From: Haladaptatus caseinilyticus
GTDB taxonomy: Archaea; Halobacteriota; Halobacteria; Halobacteriales; Haladaptataceae
Length of the DNA: 64,000 nucleotides
NCBI RefSeq assembly: GCF_026248685.1
Contig: NZ_CP111039.1
Span: 1 to 64,000, forward strand
Reading direction: 5' to 3'
Below the pieces are notes generated by a model that was given only the letters and a program-made list of their open reading frames with translations, was not told the origin of the DNA and made no database searches. The number at the start of each line of letters is the position of its first letter. Position 1 is the stretch's first letter. Both the position numbers and the translations under genes were made by a program. Shown in pieces: positions 1,379 to 9,519 of the stretch.

Positions 1379-2794
1379 TTAGGCTTCAAAGAGATCGGAA
1401 ACACGAGCGTTACTTTGCTGCAAAGCATTTTCGACGATCTCCTGCCGAATATCAAGACTATACAGATAGTAACTACCGCCGTGGATACCGTCATTCCGCT
1501 CATCATGCTTGATGAATCCTTTCAGTCGAAGCTGACTGATACGATCATGAATCGTTCGGTCAGAGACGATATCCGTGTCAATAAGATTCGCAACGAGTTG
1601 GTACCGTTCGTAGATATCCGATCGTTTGCATGGCGTTTTGCCTTCTTCCTCGAGCTGGAGTAAGCTGAATAGCGTCAGTTGGCTTTGTGTCGGGAGGGAT
1701 TCGAGTTCGTCTTGCACTTTTCCCTTCTCGATGAGATCTCGCGCTTCGCGAACGTAGCTTTCGCCGACCTCTGAGTCGTCTCTTGTTCGCGCCAAATCTC
1801 CTGCTTTGTATAGTAACTTCAGTGCCTGTCGTGCACTCCCCGATTCTTGCGCCGAGAATGCTGAACACAACGGAATCGTGTCACCGTCCAAAACGTCATC
1901 CCGAAATGCCTTTTCGGCACGCTGTTTGAGGATATTCCGGAGTTGATTCGCATCATATGGTGGGAAGTGAATTTCTTCATCGCATAAACTGTCCTTCACG
2001 CGCGCACTCAGATTATCCCGGAACGTGAAGTCATTCGAGATCCCGATAACGCCGACTAGTGTATCGTCAACACTCTCATTATCGTTCGCTCGTGGCAGTT
2101 CATAGAGGATGTCATCGTCACTGCCAATCGAATCAATCTCGTCCAAAACGACTAGTAAGTGAGTTGCATCTAAGTCGTTGATATGATTCCACAACATTTG
2201 GTACACTTGACTGGCAGCATACCCTGTTGACGGGATTTTCTCGGATGTGTCTCGGAATTGGTTCACGAGATCGACTGAAACCTGATAACTGCTGGACGCA
2301 GATTTGCAGTTCAGATTGACTACCGTGATATTGAGATCGTCGTAGTTCTCTTGATCGGATAGTAGTCGGTTCAGTACCAGTCGTGTTGCGAGAGTTTTCC
2401 CAACACCGGTTTGTCCGTATAAGAAGATATTTTTCGGCGGAGCAGCGTTAATGACGGGACGTAGTGCTTCCTGATACTCGGATAATTCCTCGTCACGCTC
2501 GACCAGTTCTTCCGGACGGTAGTTATCACGGAGAACGGCTTCGTTGACGAAGATCGGGTCATCCCGAGTGAATTCCTTCAAACCCATTGGTTCTGGTCTG
2601 ATACCATGATAGAATGCCATATAAACCCACCGTTCACGAGCAACATGAGCTTCACGAGCTTCATGAGCTACTACTCTATTTAAACACAGTCCCTCTCCGG
2701 TTTTCACGAGAAAGACTTCAGAAACCACTGGGTCGTTGTTATGAGAACCAGATACTCTCGTTTCTTTGTTCGAGACAACTCGGTGGGTAGCCAT
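1379..2794 (-). CDS. orc1: Orc1/Cdc6-family replication initiator
   Basis: This is an archaeal Orc1/Cdc6 AAA+ initiator that binds origin repeats and recruits the replicative helicase. Walker A GQTGVGKT is at residues 127-134, the Walker B/DEID box is in LLVVLDEIDSIGSDDD, and a C-terminal winged helix covers roughly the last 90 residues. A TATA-like TTTAAATC at 2821-2828 lies about 28 bases before the 2794 start, fitting a leaderless transcript. However, family homology begins only near MGLKEFTRDDPIFVNE (start at 2587, or ATG at 2620). A second TATA-like TTTAAATAG at about 2676-2684 could serve the shorter form. The N-terminal extension overlaps origin-like repeats, so the true start may be 2620. 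Confidence 0.9.
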   Translation of the reverse strand: MATHRVVSNKETRVSGSHNNDPVVSEVFLVKTGEGLCLNRVVAHEAREAHVARERWVYMAFYHGIRPEPMGLKEFTRDDPIFVNEAVLRDNYRPEELVERDEELSEYQEALRPVINAAPPKNIFLYGQTGVGKTLATRLVLNRLLSDQENYDDLNITVVNLNCKSASSSYQVSVDLVNQFRDTSEKIPSTGYAASQVYQMLWNHINDLDATHLLVVLDEIDSIGSDDDILYELPRANDNESVDDTLVGVIGISNDFTFRDNLSARVKDSLCDEEIHFPPYDANQLRNILKQRAEKAFRDDVLDGDTIPLCSAFSAQESGSARQALKLLYKAGDLARTRDDSEVGESYVREARDLIEKGKVQDELESLPTQSQLTLFSLLQLEEEGKTPCKRSDIYERYQLVANLIDTDIVSDRTIHDRISQLRLKGFIKHDERNDGIHGGSYYLYSLDIRQEIVENALQQSNARVSDLFEA

Positions 2795-6266: not shown

Positions 6267-6461
6267 ATGGACCACCTCGAAGTGGCGGACGAACCTACTC
6301 AGAAGCTTTCGGGAGTCCGTAGTGGTCCTGACGGCCCAGTTGGCAATACGAACGATGAAAAACACCAGTTGCAACGATTCGTAATGAACCACTGGTGGTT
6401 GACAAATGAAGAATGGGTTAAAGATGCTCTACCATCGGTAAGAGACAGGCAGCTAAGCTAG
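6267..6461 (+). CDS. Possible small protein (64 residues)
   Basis: I do not recognise this reading frame. It starts at an ATG about 34 bases after an AT-rich TATA-like stretch (AAATACTTAATT, 6228-6239). It encodes a hydrophilic acidic peptide with a Trp-rich end (MNHWWLTNEEWVKDAL). The acidic composition fits the host, but nothing else supports translation. Confidence 0.25.
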   Translation: MDHLEVADEPTQKLSGVRSGPDGPVGNTNDEKHQLQRFVMNHWWLTNEEWVKDALPSVRDRQLS

Positions 6462-6491
6462 GCAAGAATCAACGCCAAGAAATGACAACTC

Positions 6492-6602
6492 CGTCGGAAG
6501 TTATTGGGTGCTCCAACACCCGTCACACCTTCCGACGAACGTACAAGTGTTATTTCTTGCTCAGTGGACAAAATTGTTCGGGTTATACCTGCAGGTATAA
6601 CC
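6492..6602. repeat. Interrupted hairpin plus 22-base perfect palindrome
   Basis: CGTCGGAAG at 6492-6500 pairs with CTTCCGACG at 6529-6537, enclosing an inner GGGTG/CACCC stem. At 6581-6602 lies a perfect 22-base palindrome centred on CTGCAG, with left arm GGTTATACCTG. No gene is supported between 6462 and 6970. See the second half of the cluster at 6824-6945. Confidence 0.75.
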
Positions 6603-6823
6603 TCTTGTTCGCCTGAGTGACTCTGAGACGGGTCAGCGTGCGACGTATGCACGATGACACACTACACACAATATCTACAATACGACGACATTGAGGCCAA
6701 AACTAACCAGCAGTGCATCACGCCGGACGATTTGAAAACGAACGGCGTTATTTTTCTCCGTCGTCATTCACGCGAAGGTGTCGGCAGCAGCGAGAAGGAC
6801 ATGCTGAACTGTGAAACCACACG

Positions 6824-6945
6824 AGGGCGTCGGAATTCCGACGCCCTAAGCCGGGTCCATGGACCCGGCTACCCTGCTACCACTAGTACTATACTCACAC
6901 TAGTGAGTGTGAGTGAGGGGGGGTACTCCCACTGGCCAGTGGGAG
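6824..6945. repeat. Cluster of perfect palindromes
   Basis: Three perfect, spacer-free palindromes lie here. One is 24 bases at 6824-6847 (left arm AGGGCGTCGGAA, centre GAATTC). One is 22 bases at 6849-6870 (left arm AGCCGGGTCCA, centre CCATGG). One is 20 bases at 6926-6945 (left arm CTCCCACTGG, centre TGGCCA). Between them is the stem ACTCACAC/GTGTGAGT (6893-6900 with 6907-6914). The arm sequences are unrelated, so a structure-based rather than sequence-based function is likely. The cluster ends 25 bases before the gene at 6971. Confidence 0.85.
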
Positions 6946-6970
6946 CAGTCCCCTTCGTGAGGTGGTTTCG

Positions 6971-8566
6971 ATGAGTGGCACGGGCCACATCGATTTGTTC
7001 GTATTCGAACGAGCAATCGAACGAGTCCACGAATACGTCCAAGACAGATACGACGTCGGAGCGTCTGAGTCAGACTATTACGTGCGTATCGTGGTTGAGA
7101 ATGCGATTGAAGAGTGGTGCGACAAAGATCCGAACGCGGAGATTGAAGACCTCATCCACAATGCCATGGACGCACTCGGTGGCGACGACAACGAAGAAAA
7201 AGATCCTTTGTTTTCGAATTTGTCGGTGGCGCCCGACGAGAAGACGCGCCTCGCTCGCGACGTGCGAGAATCAATTGAGGCTCTGTTTAACGAGGATTAT
7301 GCGAAACGTGCGCCTGAGACAGACACGAAAGGCGAGTATCTCTCGCGTATTCTTTTCGAGTTCGTTACCGATGGTCGGCATGACCGTCTGCGCCGGAAGG
7401 TGAAGCGGATCGATCTATTCGCGCGGTGCGAGAGTGGCAATGCGAGCTCGGTCGAGCAGAAGGTTGCTCGTATCCGTTCGGAGCTTTCGGATAAATTCGA
7501 TAACGGGTATCCGGTACAGCGTGACGATCTCGTTGCGGCCGTGAAGATGCAGCCACAGACGAAGACGCAAAAGACCCGCGAGAAGTTAATTCAGGAAGTC
7601 CTCGATCATGACACGGTTGAGTACGTGGAGAGTCCGACGACGAAGGACGTGTTCATGCCGCGTGAGCAGGCTATCCAGAGAATGGAAAACCTTGGGTTGC
7701 CCGGTATTTTGGACGGACCGAAGTACGACCGTCTTCAGGCAGGATACGAGTTCGCGGATCTCTCGAAGGATGACAAAATAGAAGGAATCAAAGTCGCACT
7801 CGTCCGACTCGCGATGCACGCCGATTTGGGAGGAACATACCGGCTGACTGCGGAACAGATACGCCGGCGTGTTTTCGGTATTGCCGAATCTGTGCGTGTC
7901 GATACGATTCGTCGATACATGAACGAAATAGCCGACGAAGACGGATTCACAGAAACTCAGACGGAGGAAAATAGCATGAAAGCCGTCCGCGTACACGTTC
8001 CGACGATCATCAAAACAGACGTTGATCTCCTCGAAAAGGCAAATCTCGCAAAGGAATACGATTACGAAGACGCGCCGGATACGGGATTGGTTGTGAACAT
8101 TACGTCTCTGTTTGATGCCGAAAGCGAGTCTACCTCTGATGAGCCCTATCTATCGGAGCAATCCGACGACAGACAGAGTACAGTGCGTGAGGTAGATGCA
8201 CGCTTTGATGAACTCGTGGAGGGGGTTAGCAGACTGGGGTTGAATAGAACCAGCAGAGGGTCGTCGACGGATCCCTCCACATCTTCTACACGTCTCTCAA
8301 AGCCGGTATCCTCGCTGACGACAGCCGACGAACTCGAGCGGCATCCATACCGTGACCCCGAGAAATTGCGCACTGTCTACGAGCAGGAGGGCACAATCAC
8401 TGGCACAGCTGCTCACTTCGACGTGTCAGAAACCACAGCTCGCCTGTGGTTGATTCATCACGGGATCTATGATCCCGAGAGGCAGGGACTATCATCTGTT
8501 GCGAATCGGCTGGAAGAGCTCTCACCCGAGGATCTTGGACTTGCACCATTGGGTGAGTACCCATGA
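6971..8566 (+). CDS. Unrecognised plasmid protein with C-terminal HTH
   Basis: I do not recognise this 531-residue protein. I prefer the ATG at 6971 to an in-frame GTG at 6962. The N-terminal 60 residues resemble a short helical DNA-binding or dimerisation unit (YYVRIVVENAIEEWC). The middle is alpha-helical and charged. Residues about 300-330 could form a winged helix (YRLTAEQIRRRVFGIAESV). The C-terminus carries a clear homeodomain-like helix-turn-helix (GTITGTAAHFDVSETTARLW, about residues 475-494), preceded by a Ser/Thr-rich linker. Its position directly after the palindrome cluster, close to the partition and origin module, suggests a replication, copy-control or DNA-structure-binding role. 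Confidence 0.6.
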   Translation: MSGTGHIDLFVFERAIERVHEYVQDRYDVGASESDYYVRIVVENAIEEWCDKDPNAEIEDLIHNAMDALGGDDNEEKDPLFSNLSVAPDEKTRLARDVRESIEALFNEDYAKRAPETDTKGEYLSRILFEFVTDGRHDRLRRKVKRIDLFARCESGNASSVEQKVARIRSELSDKFDNGYPVQRDDLVAAVKMQPQTKTQKTREKLIQEVLDHDTVEYVESPTTKDVFMPREQAIQRMENLGLPGILDGPKYDRLQAGYEFADLSKDDKIEGIKVALVRLAMHADLGGTYRLTAEQIRRRVFGIAESVRVDTIRRYMNEIADEDGFTETQTEENSMKAVRVHVPTIIKTDVDLLEKANLAKEYDYEDAPDTGLVVNITSLFDAESESTSDEPYLSEQSDDRQSTVREVDARFDELVEGVSRLGLNRTSRGSSTDPSTSSTRLSKPVSSLTTADELERHPYRDPEKLRTVYEQEGTITGTAAHFDVSETTARLWLIHHGIYDPERQGLSSVANRLEELSPEDLGLAPLGEYP

Positions 8567-9015
8567 TGATCCCGTCTTTCGGAAATGAGTACAGATCTCG
8601 ATCGGACTATCGCCCAACGAAGTTGATGAGAACGTCGTATTAGACGGCTACTGTGGGGTGTAATTACTCTCACTTTTCTCACCACGATTTTGAAGTAGAA
8701 AAAAGCGGGAGAACTGGTCTGGCGTGATTACGGTTCACTTTCGGGCGTTAATTACGACAATGTAATCTTCGTGTCGTTCGTCTTCCGTCTACACCATCGA
8801 TGTTTCGTCGTGTCGTCGATGGGGCCACTCCATGGTCTCTGTGGTTTGATTCCACCCCCGTTGTCTCTCTTCTACCGTTGTAGTGCTCGTACTCCGTCTC
8901 CTGCCGACGATACTAACCCAGGTACCTAGTACAGAACCTTGTGAATTCTCCACACGAAATGAGTCGCACGTGCGTCTGACTGAATTTCTTGTAGACGCCC
9001 TGTAATCGTCCGTGC
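8567..9015. other. Intergenic region without a supported gene
   Basis: No convincing reading frame was found on either strand. The only notable item is GCCACTCCATGGTCTCTG at 8824-8841. It matches 3222-3239 with one difference and may be a dispersed remnant. Confidence 0.5.
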
Positions 9016-9519
9016 ATGAAACAGATCACACTCCGCGTACAGGAGGAGGTGAAAGAATCACTTGAGGACGAGGCGGCCGAGGACGGGCAATCGCTCTCCG
9101 AGTACATGCGAACGCTCATCGAACACAGAGACGAGGACACTGAAGACGCGGTCGAGTATGAGCAATTACAACAAGAACACGAGCGTCTACAGAGCGAACA
9201 CAACCGTCTACAGCAGGATCACGACCGCTTACAAACCGATCATGATCGCCTCAAACAAGAGCACGAGAGTCTCACGCAGCAACATAGCACTCTTCAGGAC
9301 GAACACAAGTCGGCCACTGAGACGCTCACAGACAAGCGTGTGGAGGCCGCGCGATTACAGGAAGCAAACGAGCGAATACAATCCGATTTAGATCGTGTGC
9401 GCAGCGAACGTGACAGTGCACAGGCACGCTACCAAGAGGCGAATACCAAGCTCAAGCTCCATAACTCCGAGAAAGACGGGTTCTTCTCGCGACTCGGCCA
9501 AGTTTTCTCCCGTGGCTAA
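9016..9519 (+). CDS. Ribbon-helix-helix protein with long coiled coil
   Basis: The 167-residue product opens with a ribbon-helix-helix signature (MKQITLRVQEEVKESLEDEA, then QSLSEYMRTLIEH). The short beta strand would contact DNA and the following helices would dimerise. Residues about 50-150 are a strongly heptad-patterned coiled coil with repeats such as QEHERLQSEHNRLQQDHDRL. The last 15 residues contain GFFSRLGQVFSRG. RHH plus coiled coil is a design seen in plasmid partition and transcription-repressor proteins. Here it could bridge DNA or contact ParA. The function is inferred. Confidence 0.7.
   Translation: MKQITLRVQEEVKESLEDEAAEDGQSLSEYMRTLIEHRDEDTEDAVEYEQLQQEHERLQSEHNRLQQDHDRLQTDHDRLKQEHESLTQQHSTLQDEHKSATETLTDKRVEAARLQEANERIQSDLDRVRSERDSAQARYQEANTKLKLHNSEKDGFFSRLGQVFSRG

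Follow-up and report, generated by a model that had tools for sequence, protein, structure and literature searches.

Palindromes before a plasmid-borne gene

What purpose might a crowd of perfect palindromes serve in front of a single gene on a haloarchaeal plasmid? The stretch analysed here (the window) covers the initial 64,000 nt of an 80,215-bp (~80-kb) Haladaptatus plasmid; genes for ParA and Orc1/Cdc6 lie at its start. Four palindromes of 22, 24, 22 and 20 nt and two further stems precede the gene at 6971-8566, and all six were confirmed at the positions given in a preliminary description (Table 1). Second-order Markov simulation of the window gives an expectation of ~0.1 palindromes with arms of at least 10 nt per 64 kb; the four observed all fall inside 365 bp (6581-6945), in agreement with the earlier view that they are extremely unlikely by chance. 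We propose that the region is probably the cis-control region of this gene, and a replication origin or part of one.

Table 1. Features of the palindrome region and neighbouring genes (window coordinates)
Feature	Position	Strand	Description
Orc1/Cdc6 gene	1379-2794		separate from the gene at 6971-8566
Upstream block	6443-6638	+	candidate promoter/5' region; 75% identical in H. halobius plasmid
Stem-loop	6492-6537 (6492-6500/6529-6537)	+	CGTCGGAAG...CTTCCGACG; 9 bp, 28-nt loop
Insertion	6574-6604	.	31 bp, relative to H. pallidirubidus; holds the 6581-6602 palindrome; TTGTTCG at both ends
Palindrome	6581-6602		GGTTATACCTGCAGGTATAACC; exact, 22 nt, no spacer
Open leader frame	6654-6974	+	106 aa; stop overlaps start codon of the gene (ATGA)
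T-rich tract	6748-6757	+	~-223 from gene start
IR-A1	6824-6847	.	AGGGCGTCGG aatt CCGACGCCCT; exact, 24 nt, no spacer
IR-A2	6849-6870	.	AGCCGGGTC catg GACCCGGCT; exact, 22 nt, no spacer
IR-B	6893-6914 (6893-6901/6906-6914)	.	ACTCACACT agtg AGTGTGAGT; 9-bp stem, 4-nt loop
IR-C	6926-6945	.	CTCCCACT ggcc AGTGGGAG; exact, 20 nt, no spacer
Shine-Dalgarno-like sequence	6959-6966	+	GAGGTGGT; GGTGGT/GAGGTG type in most relatives
Gene, phrog_29021 family	6971-8566	+	531-aa protein
RHH + coiled-coil gene	9016-9519	+	related genes on both small G003 plasmids, NZ_CP100460 and H. jeotgali plasmid 3

The closest comparison is with H. pallidirubidus plasmid NZ_CP085302.1, whose homologue is 90-91% identical over residues 1-420. 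The DNA upstream of that homologue retains IR-A1, IR-A2, IR-B and IR-C. Between 6820 and 6970 none of the 72 stem positions had changed, vs 11 of the 79 positions outside stems (Fisher P = 0.00075); the loop of IR-A1 is changed from AATT to CTTT with the stem intact. IR-C has an imperfect extension (6915-6956), the counterpart of which in H. pallidirubidus is a perfect 38-nt palindrome.

The two elements farthest upstream have a different standing. The 6581-6602 palindrome is confined to the 31-bp insertion; a search across the genome returned no second copy of the inserted element, its arms have no second copy within the window, and an origin of this palindrome as a transposon remnant was rejected on these grounds. 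The block with the 6492-6537 stem directly precedes the start of an unrelated gene in H. halobius, so the stem is assigned to another module. On this comparison, neither 6492-6537 nor 6581-6602 is part of the upstream module of the gene family. The leader frame starts just after the H. halobius-type block, consistent with a candidate promoter or 5' region at 6443-6638.

Protein family

The phrog_29021 profile (annotated in PHROG as function unknown) matches 25 of 26 members of the family, with a best E-value of 4.9e-257, while Pfam and NCBIfam scans of the protein assigned no family name. A profile built from eight members revealed full or partial relatives in 77 of the 392 genomes of the order. 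The family belongs to haloarchaeal plasmids and viruses. Many members are plasmid-borne, with carriers such as Haloarcula marismortui pNG100, Halalkalicoccus jeotgali plasmids 1 and 3, Halobacterium salinarum plasmids and a 16.7-kb Halomarina phage-plasmid; certain copies reside in chromosome-sized contigs, and scans of viral contigs yielded just two relatives.

Proteins of the family are ~340-530 aa long. The product of 6971-8566 is not Cdc6. The Pfam and NCBIfam scans, which can miss distant folds, detected neither a Rep_3-type or other Rep match nor a nicking endonuclease domain (rolling-circle HUH Rep or Rep-Arvir). Matches to RHH_1/RHH_10 were weak and limited to a few members (best E-value 0.0007). 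Two AlphaFold models were poor, with mean pLDDT of 37.5 and 50.7; the latter, for member L098, has a winged-helix-like order of elements in residues 199-265 and 281-356, at that low confidence. Foldseek searches with predicted structure gave no match at E ≤ 0.001, and PDB profile searches gave weak or implausible matches at best.

Residues 441-531 (8291-8563) form an HTH-like extension missing from the H. pallidirubidus homologue. The C-terminal 90 residues are 58-83% identical to separate loci on other replicons of the same genome (C7 and C6), suggesting that they were joined by fusion.

Downstream of the gene, the block at 8645-8769 is 84-88% identical across four Haladaptatus replicons (the window, L002, L031 and L032) and holds several copies of GTAATTAC/CGTAATTA-like motifs; orc1/cdc6 genes are located a few kb from such a block on at least three of the four. 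It is a candidate iteron or centromere cluster.

Conserved upstream layout

Homologous genes without such palindromes had been named beforehand as the outcome that would speak against a role for them; at least one perfect hairpin was found upstream in 21 of 30 distinct homologues. With hairpins defined by a stem of at least 7 bp and a loop of 3-5 nt, the 200-bp regions upstream of the 30 distinct genes contain 45, vs 1.9 expected (maximum of 6 in 200 shuffles). Palindrome centres have maxima at -80 to -70 and -40 to -30, corresponding to two palindromes at ~-76 and ~-34. The full order in relatives is a T-tract at ~-232, one or more GC-rich hairpins at ~-103 to -135, and then the two palindromes. 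The T-tract is present in most members, some of which carry an A-rich AAGAAGAAA tract instead; several of the GC-rich hairpins have the core GGGTC n4 GACCC, which is also that of IR-A2. In members added later, visual inspection of the closer relatives shows this layout again; automatic comparison of the arms was weaker for this set (10.9 vs 9.9), partly as other palindromes were picked as IR-C.

Two side observations concern the same region. In L099 (G217:C8) IR-B, IR-C and the start region are tandemly duplicated within 1-300 bp upstream of the gene. A GAAACCGC(C/A)(G/A)GAC...GCGG stretch, ~-165 from the gene start and recurring in L033, L084, L086, L097 and L101, may form another small leader hairpin.

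Paired arms and helical spacing

The arms had been described as unrelated; this is not true of the two start-proximal palindromes. The arms of IR-B (CTCACACT..AGTGTGAG) and IR-C (CTCCCACT..AGTGGGAG) agree at 7 of 8 positions, CTCACACT/CTCCCACT being the example from the window, and the pairing recurs in relatives. On average 13.9 of 18 positions agree between IR-B and IR-C arms of the same plasmid, vs 10.3 when IR-B is compared with IR-C of other plasmids. In L068 and L073 the sequence CTCACAGCA nnn TGCTGTGAG is present twice, 43 bp apart. Genomes with two members have different arms at each (G003; H. jeotgali plasmids 1 and 3). Outside the inverted repeats the half-sites are absent, or about as frequent as chance would give, on most plasmids examined, and no direct-repeat iterons with the half-site were found on the plasmids checked.

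The spacings between IR-B and IR-C cluster at 31-32, 41-44 and 53 bp, and on average lie 0.83 bp from the nearest multiple of 10.5, vs 2.6 bp if spacings were uniform; the values were collected by hand from related members and are supportive rather than a formal test. Because the arms are common within a plasmid, differ between plasmids and are spaced by nearly whole turns, the pair looks like putative sequence-specific sites in duplex DNA. Recognition of structure alone, as initially proposed for all the palindromes, was thus discarded for IR-B and IR-C, given their common arms on each plasmid; it may still apply to the GC-rich hairpins at 6824-6870, where the IR-A1 stem stays intact while its loop varies.

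Leader frame

The palindromes sit within a leader frame that reaches the gene start in most members. Of 44 members, 42 have it open from beyond -205 to approximately the start codon, its usual end being ATGA or TGATG; it is broken in H. pallidirubidus. Among distinct members an open forward frame was observed in 37 of 38, vs 11.1 expected (shuffle maximum 18). Since the frame ends on the start codon, translation of the gene is likely to be coupled to that of the leader.

The leader does not look like a genuine conserved protein: in comparisons of related pairs its three codon positions have changed about equally often (312/305/310, a count in which alignment gaps could blur codon positions), vs 378/297/911 in the gene, where the third position is strongly favoured. 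We infer that the leader is translated while its peptide sequence is free to change.

Small circular carriers

Overlapping contig ends indicate that four carriers are circular: two in a single Haladaptatus genome (G003), of 4861 and 5883 bp, and one each in G214 (11,083 bp) and G383 (14,583 bp). On the circular elements of 4.9, 5.9, 11, 14.6 and 16.7 kb the family gene was the sole initiator candidate found. tBLASTn searches with three Cdc6 proteins and SNJ1 RepA, upon which the absence of Cdc6 from the small carriers rests, produced zero matches on the four circles, on the Halomarina plasmid and on H. jeotgali plasmid 3; SNJ1 RepA was accordingly dropped as a relative. No replication protein emerged from Pfam scans of a sample of the remaining genes on both G003 plasmids and on two more small elements. 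H. jeotgali plasmid 3, which bears the family gene, is listed as having neither orc/cdc6 nor rep (PMC3528665).

The two G003 plasmids each carry a family gene (36% identical), with differing site arms; they also have in common an RHH/coiled-coil gene and a few small genes. The backbone shared by these plasmids (L033 and L086) consists of a few mostly unnamed proteins. GC skew was weak, with a minimum beside the gene only in H. jeotgali plasmid 3, and was set aside as origin evidence.

Orc1/Cdc6 is encoded by pNG100 and several other carriers as well as by the window plasmid, which also has ParA; on such plasmids the gene therefore need not be the initiator.

Possible explanations

We consider it about an even call that 6971-8566 encodes a plasmid initiator or copy-control protein under its own regulation, with putative binding sites, and perhaps an origin, before the gene. 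The encoded DNA-binding protein would bind IR-B and IR-C as duplex DNA on one helix face and, once bound, limit its own synthesis; on plasmids where the gene is the sole candidate, it would mark the origin as well. The transcript would be read through the open leader frame that ends on the start codon of the gene. Replication or copy control, as suggested at the outset, fits the plasmid-borne family, the conserved layout and the small circles, while recombination, named alongside, found no support. A bolder version is tentative and, in our estimate, improbable as it stands: a class of haloarchaeal plasmid initiator not described so far, with an origin (T-tract, GC-rich hairpins and phased paired palindromes) that would lie inside an open leader with a non-conserved peptide, with sites, hairpins and ribosome traffic jointly setting copy number.

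The protein might instead be purely an autorepressor, or a regulator of the plasmid or a provirus, with IR-B and IR-C as its operators and the origin elsewhere. We rate this as possible, though clearly less probable than an initiator or copy-control gene. Palindromic sites before the protein's own gene and the weak RHH matches would suit a CopG/Arc-like type, and several carriers have an Orc1/Cdc6 of their own; yet the 4.9- and 5.9-kb plasmids offer no other initiator candidate, a conserved module of ~240 bp with a T-tract at fixed distance exceeds what operators need, and TATA-like sequences far upstream of the palindromic sites in some members leave the sites without obvious promoter overlap. 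Unlikely, in our judgement, is that the hairpins act in RNA, as stem-loops which together with a translated leader would set downstream translation in an IncFII/IncB-like manner, possibly with an antisense RNA. The frame open to the start codon, the lack of codon-position bias (as if readability alone mattered) and the IR-A1 stem kept with a changeable loop all agree with such control; the matching arms of IR-B and IR-C at nearly whole helical turns point to duplex DNA instead, and loops of 3-5 nt are rather small for kissing antisense RNA. These three readings (initiator or copy control, autorepressor, RNA leader) are not fully exclusive and are partly compatible. To the idea that the palindromes are remnants of a mobile element or of recombination, with no role for the gene, we give very little credence: the 6581-6602 palindrome does lie in an insertion with TTGTTCG at both ends, but it has no second genomic copy, and conservation across the family, with similarly arranged hairpins preceding 21 of 30 homologues and with conserved stems, disfavours this reading.

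For haloarchaeal plasmids, some of which have no recognised initiator, the initiator or copy-control reading offers a concrete candidate gene and a control region of ~240 bp, with candidate sites on plasmids down to 4.9 kb. The locus is also an unusual case of a long leader free of stop codons whose peptide bears no sign of selection.

Comparison with known systems

The general kind, a plasmid replication gene under self-regulation with palindromic sites, is already known; the family of proteins, the upstream arrangement and the leader free of stops appear to be undescribed in the openly licensed papers searched. Iteron-type theta initiators (RepE of F, pPS10 RepA and pSC101 RepA) likewise have paired palindromic sites directly before the gene of a DNA-binding protein, and their specificity differs among coexisting plasmids; the inverted-repeat operator before rep would have its putative counterpart in the IR-B/IR-C pairs. 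Unlike them, the present family has no Rep_3-type match, no direct-repeat iterons of the half-site, and a haloarchaeal host.

The Rep-Arvir/SNJ2 replicon (PMC13107129) is similar in serving haloarchaeal virus and plasmid replication with an inverted repeat and a hairpin; there, however, the origin hairpin follows the gene of a nicking endonuclease, whereas the present sites precede the gene of a protein without a recognised nuclease domain. Rep-Arvir was rejected as a relative; PMC13107129 names neither Haladaptatus nor pNG100.

CopG/Arc-type ribbon-helix-helix autorepressors share palindromic sites before their own start, and weak RHH matches occur in some members of our family. The proteins here differ in their length of ~340-530 aa and further winged-helix-like regions (a low-confidence prediction), and the two sites lie 3-5 turns apart. 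With IncFII and IncB plasmids (tap/repA and repY/repZ) the locus shares a leader frame that overlaps the downstream start or stops beside it, with stem-loops between; it differs in its protein and in the putative paired DNA-type sites embedded in the leader.
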